The position numbers and the translations under genes were made by a program. The notes beneath the pieces were generated by a model. It was not told the DNA's origin and made no database searches. It saw only the letters and a list, made by a program, of their open reading frames with translations. A DNA stretch of 64,000 nucleotides from Paenibacillus aestuarii (GTDB lineage Bacteria > Bacillota > Bacilli > Paenibacillales > NBRC-103111), in contig NZ_JAQFVF010000043.1 of the NCBI RefSeq assembly GCF_027789125.1, positions 1 to 64,000 of the forward strand, in the 5' to 3' direction. This document shows, piece after piece, positions 11,680 to 22,220 of the stretch (position 1 is the first letter of the stretch; each line of letters begins with the position of its first letter).

Positions 11680-11692
11680 ATAGCGTCAGCAC

Positions 11693-11732
11693 AAAAAAAA
11701 TCAGGCCAACCTCCATTGGGGAGATAGCCTGA
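11693..11732 (-). terminator. Terminator after mtnB
   Basis: On the minus strand TCAGGC and GCCTGA form the outer stem, with CTCC and GGAG pairing inside, followed by eight T. It ends the pro-mtn gene string. Confidence 0.85.
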
Positions 11733-11746
11733 CTTGATTAAGAGCA

Positions 11747-12385
11747 TTAAGCTTTGAACAGCAAATGCGAGCGATACACATACTCAAACAGGAATTCAAA
11801 AGCTTCCAAGTGGCGCTTCGCTTCAAAAGCGTTCGCTCCCCAAGCGTAAATGCCGTGTTTGCGCAGCACAATACCAGGAATACGAGGGACGATTGCGCTT
11901 TCTACCAGCTCGGCGATCCGTGGAATTTCCGCGTAGTTAGGCAAAATCGGGATATCGATGTGGGCTTCTTCCTCCCAGATGTTGAACGCCTTAATCAGTT
12001 CGACGCCATCCACCGGAATGCTGCCGCGTTCCCCATAAAGCTCTGAAACGAGATTGTTAAAAATCGTATGTACGTGAAAAATAGCGCCAGCACCGGTTAA
12101 ACGGTAAATTTCGCTGTGAATCAGCGTTTCTGCAGAAGGCTTGAGACTTGTCGCTTCCGTCGGTTTGCCTTTCTCATTCACGAGCAAAAAGTCTTCCGGC
12201 GTCTGCACGGATTTATCTTTTCCGCTCGAAGTGATGGCAAATGTAAACACATCAGGATCGAATCCGCCTACACGTACGGAAAGATTGCCGCTTGTAGCCG
12301 GGAACCAGCCTCTAGCGGCCAAGTTAGCCTTGATGTCACGCAATTCAGCGAATGCGCGCTGTTTCTCCTCCAATAAAATACTCAT
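11747..12385 (-). CDS. mtnB: Methylthioribulose-1-phosphate dehydratase
   Basis: 212 residues of the class II aldolase/adducin fold. MtnB dehydrates 5-methylthioribulose 1-phosphate in methionine salvage. Zinc-binding residues are visible in FHVHTIF and in the C-terminal RKHGIYAWG segment; ATSGNLSVR is the phosphate-binding turn. Its ATG overlaps the stop of mtnX (ATGA), so it is coupled to it. It is the last gene of the string before the terminator. mtnD, the dioxygenase that normally completes mtnWXBD, is not next to it and not in the window. Confidence 0.92.
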   Translation of the reverse strand: MSILLEEKQRAFAELRDIKANLAARGWFPATSGNLSVRVGGFDPDVFTFAITSSGKDKSVQTPEDFLLVNEKGKPTEATSLKPSAETLIHSEIYRLTGAGAIFHVHTIFNNLVSELYGERGSIPVDGVELIKAFNIWEEEAHIDIPILPNYAEIPRIAELVESAIVPRIPGIVLRKHGIYAWGANAFEAKRHLEAFEFLFEYVYRSHLLFKA

Positions 12386-13044
12386 CGAACCGGTTCAGCC
12401 TCCAATTGCTTCATAATATCAAAAAACGTTTCAAACGGATAATATGCATATCCTTTTTCTTTGCACAGATCAATCAGGTGGCTTCTAGCAAAGATCGTAT
12501 CCACCAGCTTCGCGCCTTCAAAGTCGGAGATGCTGTCACCGATCAGAATGCGCTCATAGCGGTTCGCATCGTAGGAGCGAATGATGCTTGTCTTGCACAT
12601 GCCGCAATCCGCTTGGCAATGCGCGTCGCACTTATTCGGCCAGAGAATTTCGATCGTGCTGCCTTCGAAGGAGCTGGCGTTGCAGAAAATGTTCTCGTTC
12701 GCGATCGGGAACGGCTTCAACAGCGGATAGATGAAGAAATCAATGCCGCCGCTGGTAACGAGCAGCTTAATGCCGTTGTCTTGGCAATAGCTGACAAATT
12801 CGCCGAAGCCGTCGCGGATGATTGCATTTTGAATGGCATAGCTAACGATTTCTTCTTTGCGGGAAGCGGGAAATAGCGCAAACATTGCGCCAACCGTCTC
12901 ACGCAGCGACAATTTTTTATCTACCAGCTGTTGCACCAAATCTTCCCAGCCCGGCGGGTTGAAATGTTTCATAATCGCTACGATGTTGTCGCTCACGGTA
13001 ATCGTGCCGTCGAAATCGCAGAAAATAATTCGTTCCTTCTTCAT
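12382..13044 (-). CDS. mtnX: 2-hydroxy-3-keto-5-methylthiopentenyl-1-phosphate phosphatase
   Basis: 220 residues, HAD superfamily phosphatase. The nucleophile motif CDFDGTIT lies near residue 10 and GDSISDFEGAK near 165. The cysteine cluster around CDAHCQADCGMC is typical of the Bacillus MtnX proteins. The enzyme removes phosphate from the MtnW product. I place the start at 13044, where ATGA overlaps the mtnW stop with GGGGGAT upstream; an ATG 5 codons earlier is also in frame. Confidence 0.92.
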   Translation of the reverse strand: MKKERIIFCDFDGTITVSDNIVAIMKHFNPPGWEDLVQQLVDKKLSLRETVGAMFALFPASRKEEIVSYAIQNAIIRDGFGEFVSYCQDNGIKLLVTSGGIDFFIYPLLKPFPIANENIFCNASSFEGSTIEILWPNKCDAHCQADCGMCKTSIIRSYDANRYERILIGDSISDFEGAKLVDTIFARSHLIDLCKEKGYAYYPFETFFDIMKQLEAEPVR

Positions 13045-14309
13045 TCTTTGATCCCCCAAGTGTCAATAGCTGCTTTCAGTTCTGGATGATTGTTGGCATA
13101 GTCGCGTAGGGTGATCCCTTGCAAGGTTGCGTCAATCGCTTGACGGAACGCTTGTCCGCCGGCGATCGTGCCCAGCGGATGACCGTGAATGCCGCCACCG
13201 GCATTGACAACAACATCGCCGCCAAAGTCACGCAGGATCAGCGGCACGAGCCCTGGATGAATGCCAGCCGATGGCACAGGAAAACTGGCAGCCAGCTTCA
13301 AGTCCGTATCCGATGCGGCGCCGTAGGCATAATCGCGGTGCAAATCATTCGTGAGCAGCACCTGCTTGATCGCCAAGTTTTCTTCTCGCGGCATCACGAC
13401 AGAGCCGTACGGAGAAGGGAACAGCACCAGGTCCGCACCGGCGAGACGCATAAGCTTGCCGAGCAGCACGGAAGCGGAGATGCCGTAATGCGGCGACGGA
13501 TACGTCGCGCCTGCCATAGCGGGATGCGCCATGATCGGAATGTTGATCTCCGGATCTGCGCTAAGCGCTTGCAGGACGTCAAATCCGTAAGCCAGCACGT
13601 TGAACAGCAAAGCGTTCGCTCCCGCACGAATCGCCTTCTTGGCTTGTTCGGCGAGTTGGAACGTCGGGCCGGTCAAGTTGACAGCGTAGAGCAGCTTTTG
13701 ACCGGTTTCTTTTGTCGCTTGCTCAGCGGCTTCAAGACAGACCTCGATGCGTTTCTCCAGCGGCGTCAACGGATTTTCGAATAAAATCTCGTCATCCTTG
13801 ATCAAATCAACGCCGCCGGCAGCCTGCAAGTAAAACTGCTCGCGCAGCGCAGGCAGCTCATAGCCGACGACAGATTTAAAAATACTCATCAATAGCGGAC
13901 GATCATGTACGCCTAACAGGTCGCGCACACCTTGCATGCCGAATTTAGGACCGGCGAAGCCGGCCATAAATCCAGGGGAGAAGTTCAGGTCGATCAGCTT
14001 GATTTTGCCGTCCATGGACAGCTTGCCGAATACCGTCACGAGCAGCGCGGGGATATCCCGGCTGAAATTAACGTCCGGATAGGCGATTTGGATGTCCGCA
14101 TAGCGCTCGGACGGCGGCTGTCCGGGAGCAGGCTCATGGACTTCAACAGCGACCACTTTACCCAAATGCTTCTCCATCTGCGCTTTTTGCGCTTCCGGCA
14201 GCTCCGTCCAGCTGCCAACCGTCAAGCCGACGGCGATGCCGGTCGCTTTTTTATGAAAATCGGCCTTCTCGTCGAAACACCGATATGTAGCTAAGCAATA
14301 TGCGCTCAT
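13041..14309 (-). CDS. mtnW: 2,3-diketo-5-methylthiopentyl-1-phosphate enolase (RuBisCO-like protein)
   Basis: 422 residues of the RuBisCO-like protein family that enolises the diketo intermediate of methionine salvage. The loop with the lysine that is carbamylated in RuBisCO is visible as GGVDLIKDDE, and the phosphate-binding AGGGIHGHP lies near the C-terminus. The start at 14309 is chosen because AGGTGA precedes it; an in-frame ATG 13 codons upstream encodes residues foreign to the family. Only 51 bp separate it from proC on the same strand, with no terminator or SAM riboswitch visible, so it appears to ride on the proline operon. Confidence 0.92.
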   Translation of the reverse strand: MSAYCLATYRCFDEKADFHKKATGIAVGLTVGSWTELPEAQKAQMEKHLGKVVAVEVHEPAPGQPPSERYADIQIAYPDVNFSRDIPALLVTVFGKLSMDGKIKLIDLNFSPGFMAGFAGPKFGMQGVRDLLGVHDRPLLMSIFKSVVGYELPALREQFYLQAAGGVDLIKDDEILFENPLTPLEKRIEVCLEAAEQATKETGQKLLYAVNLTGPTFQLAEQAKKAIRAGANALLFNVLAYGFDVLQALSADPEINIPIMAHPAMAGATYPSPHYGISASVLLGKLMRLAGADLVLFPSPYGSVVMPREENLAIKQVLLTNDLHRDYAYGAASDTDLKLAASFPVPSAGIHPGLVPLILRDFGGDVVVNAGGGIHGHPLGTIAGGQAFRQAIDATLQGITLRDYANNHPELKAAIDTWGIKE

Positions 14310-14360
14310 TGTTCTAATTTCACCTGCTTCAAATAATATGAGCAGCAACCATGAAGATGG

Positions 14361-15221
14361 TTACGCTTGTGTGCTTTGGGCTGCGATTGCATCGCCCATT
14401 TCTTTGGAGCGTTCCCCGGAGCGGGCTACAGCGCGCGAGACGGCTTCGCCGAAGTCGTACTGGTCCAGCACTTGGATGGACGCATGAGTGGCACCATTAG
14501 GCGAAGTGACCTTGCGGCGCAGTTCTGCCGGATCTTCTCCGGTTAACTTGACCATGTTGGCGGCGCCGAGCACCGTTTGCAGCGTCAACTCGCGCGCGGT
14601 TTCCTCTGTAAGCCCGCCTTCAATGCCGGCCTTCGTCATCGCTTCCATGAGATAATACACGTAAGCAGGGCCGCTGCCGGATACACCGGTTAGGATTTCC
14701 ATTTTGTCCTCTTCAATCACGCTTACGATGCCAACGGCTTCAAACATGTCAATAGCAAGCTGCTGGTTGGCAGGCGTGACGGTGGAAGAGAAGCACATGC
14801 CTGTGGCGCCTAAGCCGATCGTGCTGGACGTATTCGGCATCGTACGGACAATTGGCATGCGCGTCGCCAGCAAGCGCTCGATCTTGTCGGTCGTAAGGCC
14901 GGCGATGACGGAGATGAGCAGCTGTTCTTCACGGAAAAGCGGCTTCAAATCTTGGAACGACGTTTCCACATCTTTCGGCTTCATGCAAAGGACGACGACG
15001 TCAGCTTCGCGGATATAAGCTTCCCGGGTCTGCGCATCGTTCGTCGTGTGGACGCCGTACTGCGCGCGGAGCTGTTCCATGCGCTCCTGATTCGCGCGGT
15101 TCATGACATACAGCTGCTGCGGGCTGGCGACCTTGCGTTCGATCAGGCCGCGGAAGATGGCCTCCGCCATCGAGCCTGCGCCGACAAAAGCAATTTTAAC
15201 TTGAGATAATAAATTCGACAT
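14361..15221 (-). CDS. proC: Pyrroline-5-carboxylate reductase
   Basis: 286 residues. It reduces 1-pyrroline-5-carboxylate to proline with NAD(P)H, the last step of proline synthesis. The Rossmann motif FVGAGSMAEAI near residue 12 and the conserved SGSGPAYVYYLMEAM near 180 are diagnostic, as is the C-terminal TSPNGATHASI. AAGGAGGA precedes the ATG. It is the fourth gene of the T-box-controlled order proB-proS-proA-proC, 70 bp after proA. Confidence 0.94.
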   Translation of the reverse strand: MSNLLSQVKIAFVGAGSMAEAIFRGLIERKVASPQQLYVMNRANQERMEQLRAQYGVHTTNDAQTREAYIREADVVVLCMKPKDVETSFQDLKPLFREEQLLISVIAGLTTDKIERLLATRMPIVRTMPNTSSTIGLGATGMCFSSTVTPANQQLAIDMFEAVGIVSVIEEDKMEILTGVSGSGPAYVYYLMEAMTKAGIEGGLTEETARELTLQTVLGAANMVKLTGEDPAELRRKVTSPNGATHASIQVLDQYDFGEAVSRAVARSGERSKEMGDAIAAQSTQA

Positions 15222-15291: not shown

Positions 15292-16539
15292 CTATTCGCG
15301 GATTTGGCCGTTTCCATAAATGCGGTATTTGGTTGAAGTCAGCGCTGGCAATCCCATCGGACCGCGAGCGTGCAGCTTCTGCGTGGAAATGCCGATTTCG
15401 GCGCCAAAGCCGAATTCGAAGCCGTCTGTGAAGCGTGTTGACGCGTTATGATAGACCGCTGCGGCATCGACTTCCTGCAGGAATACGCTGGCGTTCTCCG
15501 CATGTTCGGTGACAATGCACTCGGAGTGCATGGTCCCGTACGTCCGGATGTGCGTCAAAGCCTCATCCAAATTTTGCACGATTTTCACATTTAGAATGTA
15601 ATCCCCATATTCCGTGCCCCAATCGCCGGCTTCTGCTTGCTTCATGGAAGGAACTAGCGTCCGTGCGCGTTCATCGCCCCGCAATTCGACGCGGGCTGCT
15701 TCAAAAGCCACGGCCAGCGCGTCTAAATGCTGTTCAGCGAAAGCCTTATGCACCAGCATCGTCTCCATGGAATTGCAAACGGAAGGACGCTGAGCTTTGG
15801 CATTGACCGCGATGCGGATCGCCATGTCGAGCTGTGCACTTTCATCAATAAAAGTATGACATACACCTGCGCCCGTTTCAATGACAGGCACCGAAGCGTT
15901 ATTGACAACATTTTGAATTAGCGAATGGCCGCCTCGTGGAATAAGAACGTCAATCAACCCGTTCAATTTGAGCATTTCATCGACCGACGAGCGGTCCGGA
16001 TTCAATATAAGCTGCAGAGCGTCCATCGGAATCGCCGAGCGGCTGAGGGCGCCATGAAGCACTTCGACAATTTTTTCATTGGAAAATAGAGCTGAAGAGC
16101 CGCCGCGCAAAACGACCGCGTTGCCTGTTTTCAGGCATAAGCCTGCTGCATCGACAGTCACGTTCGGTCTAGCTTCATAAATAATGCCGATGACGCCGAG
16201 CGGGACGCGGATTTTTTGGATATGCAGCCCATTCGGGCGATCGAACGATTCGAGCGTGTCGCCGATTGGATCCGGCAGCTCGGTGATTTGCCGCAAGCCG
16301 TCAGCCATGGCAGCAATACGCCCTTCGTTCAGCGCAAGCCGGTCGAGGAGGGAGGCACTGAGACCATTTTCTTTGCCCCGCTGCAAATCTTTGGCATTCG
16401 CTTCAATAATGGCTGCTTGCTCTGTGATCAGGCTGTCGGCCATCAGCAGTAAAGCAGCGTTTTTTTGCTCGGTGGTCAAGCTGCCCATTTGGCGGGCGGC
16501 TTGTTTGGCGAGCTTGGATTTCTGTACAACTTCACTCAT
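15292..16539 (-). CDS. proA: Gamma-glutamyl phosphate reductase
   Basis: 415 residues of the aldehyde dehydrogenase superfamily. It reduces gamma-glutamyl phosphate to glutamate semialdehyde with NADPH. The catalytic cysteine lies in RPSVCNSMETMLVH near residue 255; EARPNVTVDAAGLC and GRGGS-like RGGSSALFSNEK are family segments. TAGGAGG precedes the ATG. It is 15 bp downstream of proS and so part of the same transcript. Confidence 0.94.
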   Translation of the reverse strand: MSEVVQKSKLAKQAARQMGSLTTEQKNAALLLMADSLITEQAAIIEANAKDLQRGKENGLSASLLDRLALNEGRIAAMADGLRQITELPDPIGDTLESFDRPNGLHIQKIRVPLGVIGIIYEARPNVTVDAAGLCLKTGNAVVLRGGSSALFSNEKIVEVLHGALSRSAIPMDALQLILNPDRSSVDEMLKLNGLIDVLIPRGGHSLIQNVVNNASVPVIETGAGVCHTFIDESAQLDMAIRIAVNAKAQRPSVCNSMETMLVHKAFAEQHLDALAVAFEAARVELRGDERARTLVPSMKQAEAGDWGTEYGDYILNVKIVQNLDEALTHIRTYGTMHSECIVTEHAENASVFLQEVDAAAVYHNASTRFTDGFEFGFGAEIGISTQKLHARGPMGLPALTSTKYRIYGNGQIRE

Positions 16540-16554
16540 GGGAAAACCTCCTAA

Positions 16555-18264
16555 TTAGTCGTTGGTTGAATAAAAGGACTGGCAATGCGCCAGCAACTGC
16601 AGCACATTCAGTTCGTACTGCTTACCGCTGCGGCGTTCTTTGCATTCAATGATCTGCTCGGACGCTTTGCGCCCGACGGTAAGGCGGAGCGGGATGCCGA
16701 GCAGGTCGGCGTCGTGAAACTTCACGCCTGCACGCTCTTCACGGTCGTCCCACAGCACTTCAATGCCTGCACGCGTTAAAGTGTGATAGATGTCCTCGGA
16801 CACGTTCCGCTGCGTGTCATCCTGCATGCTCACCGTGAGCAGATGAACCGCGAACGGGGCGATGGTGTGAGGCCAGACGATGCCTTGCTCGTCGGCATGC
16901 TGCTCGATCACGGCGGCGAGCACGCGGGAGATCCCAATGCCGTAGCAGCCCATGATCATCGGCATGGATGCGCCATGTTCATCGCTGAAGAGCGCGCCCA
17001 GCTTTTCGCTGTATTTGGTACCTAATTTAAATACGTGCCCGACTTCAATGCCTTTGGTAAAAGCAAGCTCATGTCCGCAGCGCGTGCATCGGTCGCCTTC
17101 GGCGGCATTGCGTAAATCGCGATAGGTGAACTCGGGTAAATCCCGGCTGACGTCGACATGAACGAGGTGGTAATCCCGTTCGTTCATTCCGATCACGGCA
17201 TCCGTCATTCCGCGAACTTCTTGGTCGGCGATAATCGGGATGTGGCTTAAGCCGTTTGGTCCAATAAATCCGGGAACGGATTGAAGTTCAGAGGCGATCT
17301 CATCTTCGCTCAGCATCTCCACCTGCGTGGCGCCGATGATCGCCTTCAGCTTGATCTCATTCAGCTCGCGGTGTCCTGGCAATAAAGCCAGCATAGGCCG
17401 TCCGTCCGCTTTTAGCGCAATCGCTTTAATGATTTGCTGCGGAGATACTTGCAAAAATTCGCTCAACTGTTTAATGCTCGTCGTGTTCGGTGTATACACT
17501 TTTTCGGCTGCGGCGAACTGGTTGGCAGCTTTAGCTAGCGGAGGGGCAACGCCGGCCGCCTTTTCGATATTGGCGGCGTACTTGCAAGCCGGGCAGTGCA
17601 CGATAGTATCTTCGCCGATGTCCGCGAGCGCCATAAATTCGTGTGTATCGGTGCCGCCGATCGCGCCTGAATCGGCTTCCACCGCACGGAAGTTCAGCCC
17701 TATTCGCGTGAAAATAGAAGTATAAGCGTCATACATGCGCTGGTAGCTCTCATCAAGTTCTTCTGCGGAACGGTCGAAGGAATAGGCATCCTTCATCAGA
17801 AATTCCCGCCCGCGCAGCAGCCCGAAGCGCGGTCTGCGCTCATCGCGGAACTTCGTCTGAATTTGGTACAAAGTAACCGGCAGTTTTTTGTACGATTGAA
17901 TTTCATCTCTGACAAGTGTGGTGATGACCTCTTCGTGTGTAGCGCCTAAGGCGAATTCGCGCCCGTTGCGGTCTTCGAGCCGCATCAGCTCTGGACCGTA
18001 AACGTCCCAGCGTCCCGATTCCTTCCATAATTCGGAAGGATGCAGGGCAGGCATCAGCAGCTCCTGCGCGCCGGCTGCGTCCATTTCTTGGCGGACGATG
18101 TCCTGGATACGGCGCAGCGCCTTGAAGCCGAGAGGCAAATACGTATAGACGCCGCTGGATAACTGGCGGATCAAGCCCGCGCGAAGCATGAGACGGTGGC
18201 TCAGCGCTTCGGCTTCCGCCGGATTGTCGCGCAGCGTCGGATGAAGCAAATGTTGTTGTCGCAT
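16555..18264 (-). CDS. proS: Prolyl-tRNA synthetase (bacterial type)
   Basis: 569 residues, the length of bacterial ProRS carrying an inserted editing domain between class II motifs 2 and 3 (roughly residues 225-385). Motif 2 is seen as FRDERRPRFGLLRGREFLMK and motif 3 as GCYGIGISRVLAAV; the C-terminal anticodon domain follows. It charges proline onto tRNA-Pro. Its place between proB and proA links proline use with proline synthesis behind one proline-sensing T-box. In B. subtilis proS lies elsewhere. Confidence 0.94.
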   Translation of the reverse strand: MRQQHLLHPTLRDNPAEAEALSHRLMLRAGLIRQLSSGVYTYLPLGFKALRRIQDIVRQEMDAAGAQELLMPALHPSELWKESGRWDVYGPELMRLEDRNGREFALGATHEEVITTLVRDEIQSYKKLPVTLYQIQTKFRDERRPRFGLLRGREFLMKDAYSFDRSAEELDESYQRMYDAYTSIFTRIGLNFRAVEADSGAIGGTDTHEFMALADIGEDTIVHCPACKYAANIEKAAGVAPPLAKAANQFAAAEKVYTPNTTSIKQLSEFLQVSPQQIIKAIALKADGRPMLALLPGHRELNEIKLKAIIGATQVEMLSEDEIASELQSVPGFIGPNGLSHIPIIADQEVRGMTDAVIGMNERDYHLVHVDVSRDLPEFTYRDLRNAAEGDRCTRCGHELAFTKGIEVGHVFKLGTKYSEKLGALFSDEHGASMPMIMGCYGIGISRVLAAVIEQHADEQGIVWPHTIAPFAVHLLTVSMQDDTQRNVSEDIYHTLTRAGIEVLWDDREERAGVKFHDADLLGIPLRLTVGRKASEQIIECKERRSGKQYELNVLQLLAHCQSFYSTND

Positions 18265-18289: not shown

Positions 18290-19390
18290 TTACGTTAATG
18301 GGACCCATTCGTCCCGGTGAATGACTTCAATGCGGGCGACCTCGACGCGCCTCTGCACCTCATCGGTCGATAAGCCTGCGGCGGCCTGCAGCTGCCAGGC
18401 CGCATAGTTGACGACGCCGCGGCCGAGCAGTGCGCCGTCGCTCGTTGCCACCTCGACGACAGCGCCGGGGTGGAAGTCGCCCTCCACGGCGGTGATGCCG
18501 GCGGGGAGGAGGCTCTTGCCGCCGGAGAGCAGCGCCGCTTTGGCGCCTGCGTCGACGAGGATTCTTCCTTGGGGCAGCGAGTGGAAGCCGACCCATTGCT
18601 TCTTGACCGGCAGATTGTTCAGCGACGTGTCAAAATACGTCCCCTTGCCGCGTCCGTCGACGGCAAGCGGCAGATCATAGGGCTCGAGCACGCGCCCTAT
18701 GAAGACCGGCACGCCCCCGCGCATCGCGATGCGGGCGGCTTCGACCTTGGAGCGCATGCCGCCGGTGCCGACCGCGCTCCCGGACCCGCCAGCGAAGCTG
18801 AACAGCTCGTCGCTGATCGCATCCACGCGCTCGATGCGCTGCGCGTTCGCGTTTTTGCGCGGGTCGTCCGTGTACAGGCCGTCCATATCGGTAATGATGA
18901 TCAATCGGCTCGCTTTCACCAGATTGCCGACCAGCGCCGACAGCGTGTCGTTGTCGCCGAATTTGAGCTCATCCACCGACACCGTGTCGTTCTCGTTGAT
19001 GATCGGCACGACGCCGCGCTGCAGCAGCTCGTCGATCGTCATCAGCGCGTTCTGCACGCGCTTGCGGTTGGAGAAGTCGTACCGGGTCAGTAATATTTGT
19101 GCCACACGGATGCCATGGGTGGCAAAAGCTTCGTGGTACGACTGCATCAGCAGTGCCTGGCCGACCGAAGCGGCGGCCTGCTTCTCGTGCAGCACCTTGG
19201 GCCGCGTCTTGTAGCCCAAGGACGTAAAGCCTGCGGCTACGGCACCGGAGGTGACGAGCAGCACTTGGTAGCCGTCCTCCTGAAGCCGCGACAGCTCGGA
19301 GGCGAAGAACCGTATTTTATCCGGGTTCAAGCCACCCGTTTCTGAAGTTAATGAACTGCTGCCGATTTTGACAACGATTCGCTGAGTCAT
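18290..19390 (-). CDS. proB: Glutamate 5-kinase
   Basis: 366 residues: an amino-acid kinase domain (about 1-260) starting KIGSSSLTSETGG, then a PUA domain (about 275-355). It phosphorylates glutamate as the first step of proline synthesis and is usually inhibited by proline; INENDTVSVDELKFGDND is the conserved substrate loop. AAGGATGG precedes the ATG. It is the first gene after the T-box leader. The C-terminal half is markedly GC-rich. Confidence 0.94.
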   Translation of the reverse strand: MTQRIVVKIGSSSLTSETGGLNPDKIRFFASELSRLQEDGYQVLLVTSGAVAAGFTSLGYKTRPKVLHEKQAAASVGQALLMQSYHEAFATHGIRVAQILLTRYDFSNRKRVQNALMTIDELLQRGVVPIINENDTVSVDELKFGDNDTLSALVGNLVKASRLIIITDMDGLYTDDPRKNANAQRIERVDAISDELFSFAGGSGSAVGTGGMRSKVEAARIAMRGGVPVFIGRVLEPYDLPLAVDGRGKGTYFDTSLNNLPVKKQWVGFHSLPQGRILVDAGAKAALLSGGKSLLPAGITAVEGDFHPGAVVEVATSDGALLGRGVVNYAAWQLQAAAGLSTDEVQRRVEVARIEVIHRDEWVPLT

Positions 19391-19427: not shown

Positions 19428-19690
19428 AAAAAAGACTTCCGTCCTCATGACAAATAAGGACGAAAGTCTGACACTTCCGCGGTACCACCTTAGATTGGCG
19501 CACGCTTTATAGGCTGCACCCAACTCTGGAATCCCTATATAACAGCAGGGGACTGTTCAACTCATCGTTGACCGTTCAGGGGCGGGTTCGGAACCGGATC
19601 ACGGTAAGCTCTCACAGCCGATGGAGCTTACTCTCTGCAGCGTGTTGCACACTTCCTACTATTCCCATCATAACGTTGCTATATGGAAGA
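19428..19690 (-). promoter_or_regulatory. T-box leader, proline type, upstream of proB
   Basis: On the minus strand the classic T-box AAGGTGGTACCGCGGAA (19475-19491) is followed by a terminator hairpin, GACTTTCGTCCT...AGGACGGAAGTC (19434-19469), and a T run. Upstream are the stem I landmarks GATGGGAATAGTA, the GA motif CAGAGAGTA, and GAACCCGCC where the specifier lies; CCC and CCG both read proline. Uncharged tRNA-Pro should block termination and switch on proBSAC. The outer limits are approximate. Confidence 0.93.
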
Positions 19691-19730: not shown

Positions 19731-19760
19731 AGAATAGCACGCTGTACAAGCCTTTGTAAA
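19731..19760 (-). promoter_or_regulatory. Possible sigma-A promoter of the proline operon leader
   Basis: On the minus strand TTTACA and TATTCT are 18 bp apart, about 40 bp before stem I of the T-box and right after the mtnE stop. Confidence 0.5.
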
Positions 19761-19767
19761 GCGGCTT

Positions 19768-20970
19768 TTATTCAAATAAGCGAAGCTTGCCGATTCGCTG
19801 CACAGCTTCCTCCAAGCGGGCTTCCGTCGAGAGCAGGCCAAGCCGGACATAGCCTTCGCCATGTTCGCCGAACCCGACGCCGGGTGCGACAACGACTTTG
19901 GCTTCCTGCAGGAGCAAATCGGACAGGCTTTGCGACGTATGGCCTTTAGGCACAGGCAGCCAGGAGAAGAACGAGCCTTGCGATGGTTTGGCCTGCCAGC
20001 CGATTTCGTGCAGCGCTGCATAAAGCGCATTGCGGCGGCTTTCGTAGACGCTGCGCAGTTCGTTGACGCAGTCCTGCGGGCCTGTCAGCGCTGTTTGCGC
20101 CGCAACTTGAATGCCGCCGAACAGGGAGCAGTAATAATGATCCTGCATCAGGTTGATCAGGCGGATGACTTCGCGGTTGCCGAGGGCAAAACCGACGCGC
20201 CAGCCGGCCATGTTGTAAGTTTTGGACAGCGTGTAGAACTCCACGCCGACTTCTTTCGCGCCGGGCGTAGAGAGGAAGCTGACAGGCTTCTGGCCGTCAA
20301 AACCGATGGCGCCATACGCGAAATCGCTGGCGACGACAACGTTATTTTTATAGGCGAACTCTACCGTATCCTGGTAAAAAGAAGCGGGCGCCGTCGCGCC
20401 GGTCGGATTGTTCGGATAGTTGATGAACATCAGCTTCGCGCGCTCCAGATCAGCTGGCTCGATCGCGGAATAGTCCGGCAGGAAGGCGTTGTCCGCTTTG
20501 AGCGGCATGAAGGACATCCGCGCACCGGCCAGAGCTACGCCTGACCAATAATCCGGGTAACCCGGGTCGGGAACGAGACAAACGTCGCCTGGGTTGAGCA
20601 AACATTGAGCAATTTCGATCAGCCCTGTTTTGCCGCCAAATAGGATCGCGACCTCCGTCTCCGGATCAAGCTCAACGCCATGATCTTCCTTATAGCGCTG
20701 CGCAATCGCTTCTTTCAAGAAAAGAAAACCGCTGAAAGGCGGGTATTTATGGTACAGCGGGTTGGCAGACGCTTCCTGCATCGCTTTCACAATGTGGGGA
20801 GGCGTCGGACGGTCCGGATTGCCTTGCCCCAGATTGATGACGTCATGGCCTTGGGTGATCTGGGCATTGGCTTTGCCTACAAGCGTCGCAAAAAACTGCG
20901 TAGGCAGACCTTGCATCCGCTCGGCGGGATGTATGGAAAAGGCAGATTGTGTTTGGGGTACGTTAGACAC
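19768..20970 (-). CDS. mtnE: PLP-dependent aminotransferase, likely MtnE of methionine salvage
   Basis: 400 residues, fold type I aminotransferase class I/II. The PLP lysine lies in YTLSKTYNMAGWRVG near residue 235; NYPNNPTGA is the conserved cofactor segment, and NLGQGNPDRPTPPHI near the N-terminus resembles MtnE. MtnE transaminates the keto acid KMTB to methionine, preferably with glutamine. The divergent neighbour mtnU, an omega-amidase-like hydrolase, fits a glutamine donor, which is the main reason for this assignment over a general aminotransferase. Start is GTG, with GGAGTG 12 bp upstream. No terminator of its own is seen before the T-box. Confidence 0.78.
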   Translation of the reverse strand: MSNVPQTQSAFSIHPAERMQGLPTQFFATLVGKANAQITQGHDVINLGQGNPDRPTPPHIVKAMQEASANPLYHKYPPFSGFLFLKEAIAQRYKEDHGVELDPETEVAILFGGKTGLIEIAQCLLNPGDVCLVPDPGYPDYWSGVALAGARMSFMPLKADNAFLPDYSAIEPADLERAKLMFINYPNNPTGATAPASFYQDTVEFAYKNNVVVASDFAYGAIGFDGQKPVSFLSTPGAKEVGVEFYTLSKTYNMAGWRVGFALGNREVIRLINLMQDHYYCSLFGGIQVAAQTALTGPQDCVNELRSVYESRRNALYAALHEIGWQAKPSQGSFFSWLPVPKGHTSQSLSDLLLQEAKVVVAPGVGFGEHGEGYVRLGLLSTEARLEEAVQRIGKLRLFE

Positions 20971-21130: not shown

Positions 21131-21931
21131 ATGGAGGAAACACAGCTATTGCATGTTGCATTGATTCAAATGGACATTGCCATCGGGGAACCCGATACCA
21201 ACTATACGCATTTGGAAAAGCTTCTGGGCGAAGCGGTTTCCGCTGAAGTGAAGCCGGATGTCATCGTTTTCCCGGAAATGTGGAACACCGGTTACGCGCT
21301 GACCGAGATCCACGAGCTGGCCGATCGGGAAGGCGAGCGCACGAGAGCTTTTTTAAGCGAATTTGCCCGCAACCATCAAGTGAACCTCATTGGCGGTTCC
21401 ATTGCCGATAAGCGCGGGGATCGCGTGCTTAATACGATTTATGCTTTTGACCGCCAAGGCGCGGAAATCGCCGAATATTCCAAGATTCATCTGTTCCGCC
21501 TGATGGATGAAGAGAAATACTTGCACAGCGGCGAACAGCTTGGCCGCTTTGAGCTGGAAGGCGTGCCGGCGGGCGCGATGATCTGCTATGACATCCGCTT
21601 TCCGGAGCTTGCGCGCAAGCTTGCCCTAGATGGCGCGCGCATTTTGTTTGTGCCGGCCGAGTGGCCGCATCCGCGTTTGCATCATTGGCGTACATTGCTC
21701 ATGGCCAGAGCCATAGAGAATCAAATGTACGTAGTCTCCTGCAATCGCGTCGGCACGAGCGGAACGACGAACTTCTTCGGCCACTCCATGGTCATCGACC
21801 CGTGGGGCGAGGTGTTGGTCGAGGGCGACGAGAACGAAGCGATTTTGCGGGCGACGATCGATTTGAGCGAAGTTGTGCGTGTGCGTGGTAAAATCCCTGT
21901 TTTCGAAGACCGCCGTCCGCAATTGTATTAG
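21131..21931 (+). CDS. mtnU: Nitrilase-family amidase, likely 2-oxoglutaramate amidase MtnU
   Basis: 266 residues, carbon-nitrogen hydrolase superfamily. The Glu-Lys-Cys triad is visible: E in VFPEMWNTGY near residue 49, K in EYSKIHLF near 118, C in MICYDIRFPE near 152. The MtnU/YkrU group hydrolyses alpha-ketoglutaramate, the by-product of glutamine transaminases such as MtnE, to 2-oxoglutarate and ammonia. It diverges from mtnE with 160 bp between, consistent with paired function. GAAAGGGG precedes the ATG. Confidence 0.82.
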   Translation: MEETQLLHVALIQMDIAIGEPDTNYTHLEKLLGEAVSAEVKPDVIVFPEMWNTGYALTEIHELADREGERTRAFLSEFARNHQVNLIGGSIADKRGDRVLNTIYAFDRQGAEIAEYSKIHLFRLMDEEKYLHSGEQLGRFELEGVPAGAMICYDIRFPELARKLALDGARILFVPAEWPHPRLHHWRTLLMARAIENQMYVVSCNRVGTSGTTNFFGHSMVIDPWGEVLVEGDENEAILRATIDLSEVVRVRGKIPVFEDRRPQLY

Positions 21932-21994: not shown

Positions 21995-22220
21995 CAATGG
22001 CGGCAGTGATGGATGAATAGTACTCGAAGCGCCTTCATGTTCAGCGAGCTGGGGTCGGTGCAAGCCCAGAGATGAAGTTCGGGGAAAAGGCAATCCGGAG
22101 CCGTGTCGATAAAGGGGATGCGCGAGTGTTTAGGCGCGTGTCAACTAGGGTGGAACCGCGGGTGCGTAAGGCTCTCGTCCCTAGGCATATTTAGATGCCT
22201 TTGGATGATGAGCCTTTTTT
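21995..22220 (+). promoter_or_regulatory. T-box leader, glycine type, upstream of glyS
   Basis: T-box AGGGTGGAACCGCGGG at 22147-22162, preceded by stem I with GGATGAATAGTA, GA motif CAGCGAG and the specifier stretch GGGGAAAAGGCAAT, in which GGC reads glycine. A terminator (AGGCTC...GAGCCT, inner stem AGGCAT/ATGCCT, then TTTTTT, 22168-22220) follows. Uncharged tRNA-Gly should allow read-through into glyS. Confidence 0.94.

Follow-up and report, generated by a model that had tools for sequence, protein, structure and literature searches.

What signal governs methionine salvage genes that lie at the end of a proline operon? The question is raised by Paenibacillus aestuarii (assembly GCF_027789125.1; order Paenibacillales), in which positions 1 to 64,000 of contig NZ_JAQFVF010000043.1, the whole stretch analysed here and called the window, carry mtnW, mtnX and mtnB behind proC. 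A first-pass annotation of this DNA described the three genes as appended to a proline T-box operon and, unless a promoter hides in the gap behind proC, as responding to tRNA-Pro charging instead of S-adenosylmethionine (SAM). Our analysis indicates that mtnWXB probably form the distal part of a T-box(Pro)-proB-proS-proA-proC-mtnWXB operon, which would follow proline shortage and not SAM, and which would owe its layout to one insertion. The proline T-box, the lack of an S-box, the lack of a clear promoter and the conserved coupling of the earlier interpretation are retained, while the direction in which the genes joined and the extent of the pathway concerned are revised.

The proline operon and its T-box leader

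The operon is read on the minus strand. A SigA-type promoter-like site, TTTACA-18-TATTCT (19731-19760, a consensus match), lies 7 nt past the mtnE stop codon, followed by a T-box leader (19453-19680) and the terminator of this leader (19433-19469; 16 pairs, -22.8 kcal/mol). Downstream lie proB (18290-19390; glutamate 5-kinase, TIGR01027 over its cut-off), proS (16555-18264; prolyl-tRNA synthetase, NF006625 and TIGR00409 over cut-off), proA (15292-16539; glutamate-5-semialdehyde dehydrogenase, NF001221 and TIGR00407 over cut-off) and proC (14361-15221; pyrroline-5-carboxylate reductase, TIGR00112 over cut-off). The last is ProI-like, its best hit, NF005813 (ProI), lying under its own cut-off. 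A 51-bp gap (14310-14360) contains the ribosome-binding site AGGTGA as well as a weak hairpin starting at the end of proC, and is followed by mtnW (13041-14309; 2,3-diketo-5-methylthiopentyl-1-phosphate enolase, start ATG, TIGR03332 and NF007095 over cut-off); this spacing and the common strand had been given correctly at first pass. The ATGA coupling claimed there is likewise present, as 4-nt overlaps between mtnW and mtnX (13041-13044) and between mtnX and mtnB (12382-12385). The mtnX gene (12382-13044) encodes a phosphatase (NF007103 over cut-off, TIGR03333 not passed) and mtnB (11747-12385) a dehydratase (TIGR03328 over cut-off, NF005244 just missed with 278.6 of 281), with a terminator of -21.4 kcal/mol located 3' of mtnB (approximate limits 11690-11740).

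The leader matches the T-box model RF00230 over its full length (1-219; 80.6 bits, E 1.8e-16). It carries the T-box sequence GGTGGTACCGCG, which we take to pair with the acceptor end of the tRNA and which recurs in 76 of 80 named loci, these being the best 80 of 418 loci from a search for mtnW relatives. The specifier is read by pattern as GAA-CCC-G. In T-boxes a purine follows the specifier codon, and in the CCCG form the frame is CCC or CCG, both of them proline codons. Among 109 leaders the readings are CCC in 71, CCT in 25 and CCA in 6, with 7 unread by the pattern, and 44 further loci of the order, some from species already represented, give CCC in 29 and CCT in 15; since the pattern itself demands CC, other amino acids could not come out, and the counts are a reading of loops already seen. 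The shifts among proline codons suggest selection on tRNA-Pro recognition. A terminator is present in all 77 T-box leaders. The designation as a proline T-box operon is thereby borne out, a T-box with a proline specifier standing at the head of proB-proS-proA-proC-mtnWXB.

In the proposed mechanism, transcription would start at the SigA-type promoter just past mtnE, and the leader would terminate it unless uncharged tRNA-Pro binds and stabilises the antiterminator. Polymerases that pass the leader would run through proBSAC into mtnWXB, and the levels of MtnB, MtnW and MtnX would follow proline need together with leak-through, with no response to SAM. From this layout we infer that salvage would follow the charging of tRNA-Pro. 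By itself the consensus match to this promoter-like site does not exceed chance, six such sites having turned up in the scanned region where 5.0 are expected, but the stretch upstream of the window's T-box reaches 11.3 bits in a promoter scan. With just 7 nt between mtnE and the promoter-like site, transcripts of mtnE may also run on into the leader. The proS gene lies between proB and proA in the window's clade and a few other loci (the proB-proA gap exceeds 300 in 25 of 109), which would bring the synthetase for the sensed tRNA under T-box control along with the biosynthesis genes.

MtnW matches the solved enolase 2oek with an E value of 3.5e-139. Of 119 evenly sampled genomes from the window's order, 85 carry mtnW. 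Among the 34 without it, 20 were searched for mtnK, which is absent over its cut-off in 18, placing MtnW in the salvage pathway. The idea of a new function for MtnW was dropped in view of the family cut-offs passed, the joint absence of mtnK and the 2oek match. Further pathway genes lie elsewhere in the genome, with mtnK-mtnA on contig C44 and mtnD (acireductone dioxygenase family) beside metH on contig C20, and at these two loci no riboswitch model, the S-box model included, gives a match. The proposal that methylthioribose salvage has come under the proline operon would cover mtnW-mtnX-mtnB, and hence only part of the pathway.

Linkage across the order and absence of an S-box

The gene immediately 5' of mtnW is proC in all 80 named loci and in all 85 mtnW-bearing genomes of the order sample. 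By title, the named loci comprise 78 Paenibacillus (two of them metagenome-assembled genomes, MAGs), one Paenibacillaceae bacterium and one Bacilli MAG; the 85 order genomes, all inspected, comprise the window, 40 loci from 8 coded families and 44 more. The two sets share species and loci (for example, L057 = L150), and all loci are related by descent, so that counts over them are not independent. The proC-mtnW gap ranges from -4 to 214 bp in the named loci and measures 0 to 60 bp in most, the two genes overlapping by 1 or 4 nt in 22 of the 80. Among 112 loci distinct by MtnW sequence, no proC-mtnW gap exceeds 300 bp (maximum 220); for comparison, distances above 700 bp occur between mtnE and proB in 18 of 105 loci and between mtnB and dnaD in 49 of 74. 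The adjacency of proC and mtnW is more than chance. Two loci are irregular: in L177 (G142), mtnW is split into two parts that are read in different frames, which points to either a pseudogene or a sequencing error, and L180 is rearranged, with no proB detected and with rRNA genes farther upstream.

Promoter-like sites were scored at 81 loci over the proC-mtnW gap and the final 252 nt of proC, with base frequencies that make the scores approximate and with the T-box upstream region and synonymous shuffles as controls. The best sites remain at background (mean z -0.15 against the shuffles), z exceeding 2 at 4 of the 81 loci and the score reaching at least 9 bits at 5 (L019, L020, L022, L057 and L073), compared with all 77 T-box upstream regions. 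The window's best score, 4.1 bits with z -1.8, is among the lower ones; its gap and proC end are without a clear SigA-type site, and no hidden promoter, the exception allowed for at first pass, stands out. Terminator-like hairpins, defined as -8 kcal/mol or lower, occur between proC and mtnW at 5 of 81 loci (the window, L010, L011, L057 and L073) and after mtnB at 71 of 81. A scan of proC for synonymous constraint in 10-codon windows, every fifth printed, finds no marked constraint in the last 100 codons, the highest z in each of three clades being 0.94, 1.92 and 1.7. In the clade whose proC and mtnW overlap, z is 2.22 in the final window, and top windows elsewhere have 3.6 to 3.9. A hidden element at the proC end was rejected on the ground of these constraint and promoter scans. 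Cotranscription of proC and mtnWXB appears the best reading of these sequences because of the overlaps, the capped proC-mtnW gaps, the background promoter scores and the lack of marked synonymous constraint.

The expected lack of an S-box near mtnW is confirmed, none being found in the window between 9000 and 24000 at E up to 5. A model built from 25 S-boxes of the order gives no match in the window and the 80 named loci, nor in the 40 and 44 loci of the order sample. The Rfam SAM-I model gives no match in the 10 order loci searched, whereas 9 of the 10 outgroup loci searched yield 15 in all. The outgroup consists of 40 of the 149 mtnW-bearing genomes outside the order, chosen to span families, from a class sample of 299 genomes of which 167 have mtnW; its loci L191, L209, L210, L212 and L219 end at contig ends. 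Elsewhere in the order, 79 S-boxes were found, 77 of them in 50 of the 80 named genomes and 2 in the window's genome. No salvage gene follows any of the 32 inspected, which precede metA (15, by tblastn), MetN-like ABC genes (10, by eye), Nudix-like genes (6, by eye) and an open reading frame of 177 aa (1).

The Nudix-like genes, recognised by their translations, follow the S-box (near position 1500-1610) in L108, L109, L113, L117, L131 and L132; we know of no such S-box target. The window genome's own two S-boxes precede metA and the 177-aa frame, the second (L082, G000:C71:26325-26457) lying 5' of that frame, whose function is unassigned. For Paenibacillus riograndensis, the accessible part of PMC5670726 likewise reports a SAM riboswitch on a metA operon.

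Alternative explanations

Several observations weigh against control of mtnWXB by proline shortage, and the strongest of the competing explanations starts from the junction itself. At the proC end, the window's gap contains a hairpin of 11 pairs with a single bulge and -11.9 kcal/mol, where partial termination may occur. Six genomes of a single coded family (L057/L150, L073/L152, L158, L161, L162 and L163; L057 and L073 are from P. thermotolerans and P. alkalitolerans) show, on inspection by eye, a hairpin before mtnW together with a TATAAT promoter-like sequence that is in most cases TTTACC-17-TATAAT, and mtnWXB have probably become secondarily independent of the proline operon there; L019, L020 and L022 also exceed 9 bits before mtnW in the promoter scan. 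Decoupling can thus evolve, and mtnWXB of the window could likewise possess their own SAM-independent promoter within proC or the gap, with the hairpin stopping most read-through, the linkage being old and the expression constitutive. Set against this are the window's low promoter score and the overlap of proC and mtnW in over a quarter of the named loci (22 of the 80 above). The hairpin is missing in the nearest relative, L001, its U stretch is interrupted and some nucleotides away, and a consensus terminator scan does not list it. We regard an independent promoter as rather unlikely. The original statement that no terminator precedes mtnW accordingly holds only with the qualification of this weak hairpin.

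The T-box itself is not universal. It was found before proB in 77 of the 80 named loci (76 by motif, L060 by Rfam); L042 has none before proB, L055 has no T-box motif and shares its contig with L182, where no Rfam match precedes proB, and L059 is cut by a contig end. The motif precedes proB in 32 of the 40 order loci and in 44 of the 44 further ones. At a threshold of E 0.001, L148, L172, L173, L179 and L182 show no T-box before proB, the T-box match in L172 being located beside glyS; L159 and L163 are truncated, and L180 is the rearranged locus. The proC-mtnW order is kept in these five T-box-less loci and in L042. The mtnE-proB distance is 15 nt in L042 and about 32 nt in L148, and with so short a distance and no T-box found, mtnE-proBAC-mtnWXB may form one operon in both.

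The link between proline and salvage may be useful or may be a tolerated relic. The loss of T-boxes and the gain of promoters seen in certain lineages favour a relic, and the long retention of proC-mtnW favours selection on cotranscription. An adaptive link, in which one tRNA-Pro sensor couples methylthioribose recycling to proline limitation and has replaced SAM sensing from near the base of the order onward, is considered unlikely.

The remaining doubts concern the leader. Its 80.6 bits fall below the RF00230 gathering score of 93, making it T-box-like by the strict score test and a T-box by its parts. Only tRNA-Pro(UGG) was detected, in 5 copies (two patterns and ARAGORN), so a CCC specifier would face U34, needing wobble or a modified U34. 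Together with the relatives that keep the gene order without a detected T-box, these two points would fit a situation in which mtnWXB are cotranscribed with proBSAC behind a leader that is no working tRNA-Pro switch in this species, expression proceeding regardless of proline. However, the model match is full length with a very small E value, and 12 of the 24 T-box matches in this genome also fall under the gathering cut-off, for which reason the leader is taken as a real T-box; the readable specifiers vary only among proline codons, and the terminator is kept in every T-box leader. A leader without a working switch seems to us highly improbable. That mtnWXB still respond to methionine or SAM through an unrecognised element would be compatible with searches that covered known RNA families and with a mild rise in codon conservation at the mtnW start in one clade (z 1.4 to 2.3), but the short gap in most loci, the lack of a constraint signal at the proC end and the absence of a salvage gene behind any inspected S-box of the order make this highly improbable as well.

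Origin of the arrangement and comparison with known systems

In 28 of the 40 outgroup loci, mtnW has an S-box on its strand no more than 700 nt upstream. The gene next upstream of mtnW is mtnE in 21 of the 40, and in 16 of these 21 the S-box stands between the two; mtnD lies 3' of mtnB in 35 of 40. No pro genes occur in the examined stretch of the 40 loci, proC being directly upstream of mtnW in 0 of 40. In the window, the proline cassette stands between mtnW and an mtnE-like aminotransferase gene just upstream of the T-box (19768-20970, minus strand; NF005977 transaminase over cut-off, PF00155). A tree of 91 MtnW proteins, built by a quick method and including 51 of the 112 distinct pro-linked proteins (L159 forming a long branch), places all 51 pro-linked rows on one side of one branch with a support of 95 in the Shimodaira-Hasegawa-like approximate likelihood ratio test (SH-aLRT).

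One insertion of the pro cassette between mtnE and mtnW explains this pattern of gene order and tree, and a single such event near the base of the order is most likely. The T-box-proBAC cassette would have entered the mtnE-mtnW gap, where many other Bacilli have an S-box. The first-pass view of salvage genes appended to a proline operon most likely reverses the course of events, the cassette having come to lie between mtnE and mtnWXB. A point on the opposite side is that 12 of the 40 outgroup loci likewise have no S-box before mtnW; among them are L187 and L188, which the tree places together with the order and 15 further rows in a starred part of 68 rows.

Beyond mtnE lies a divergent mtnU-like gene for a carbon-nitrogen hydrolase (21131-21931, plus strand; PF00795, no NCBIfam cut-off passed, name from synteny). 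Both mtnE and mtnU are named from broad family membership and from synteny with the outgroup mtn loci. A second T-box (21997-22185, plus strand; 65.8 bits, below the gathering score) lies 5' of a putative glycyl-tRNA synthetase gene, named by reading.

The arrangement represents an apparent regulatory rewiring by insertion, in which a T-box cassette for one amino acid occupies the place of another pathway's SAM riboswitch. It offers a test case of whether operon membership alone can maintain non-cognate control over the long term, the decoupled lineages serving as natural controls, and it cautions against predicting SAM control of Paenibacillus mtn genes from Bacillus subtilis. No description of the pro-mtnWXB linkage was found in the open literature searched; subscription papers and RegPrecise, which lay outside this scope, may list it.

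Among known systems, the closest in its sensor is that of B. subtilis, where proB-proA and the ProI reductase gene proI are under tRNA-Pro-responsive T-box control (PMC9245794, accessible part). The likeness lies in a proline T-box over anabolic proline genes. The difference is that proBA and proI form separate T-box units, with no salvage genes named in that part of the source, whereas one leader serves all genes in the window. The S-box (SAM-I) mtnWXBD loci of other Bacilli resemble the window in their enzymes and, in 21 of 40 cases, in having mtnE as the upstream neighbour; unlike them, the window is without an S-box, has proline genes between mtnE and mtnW, and carries mtnD elsewhere. In Lactobacillales, a T-box(Met) regulon has expanded over methionine genes, as far as the accessible part of PMC3766115 describes it. 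There the sensed tRNA fits the pathway, whereas in the window a tRNA-Pro sensor heads genes of methionine salvage.

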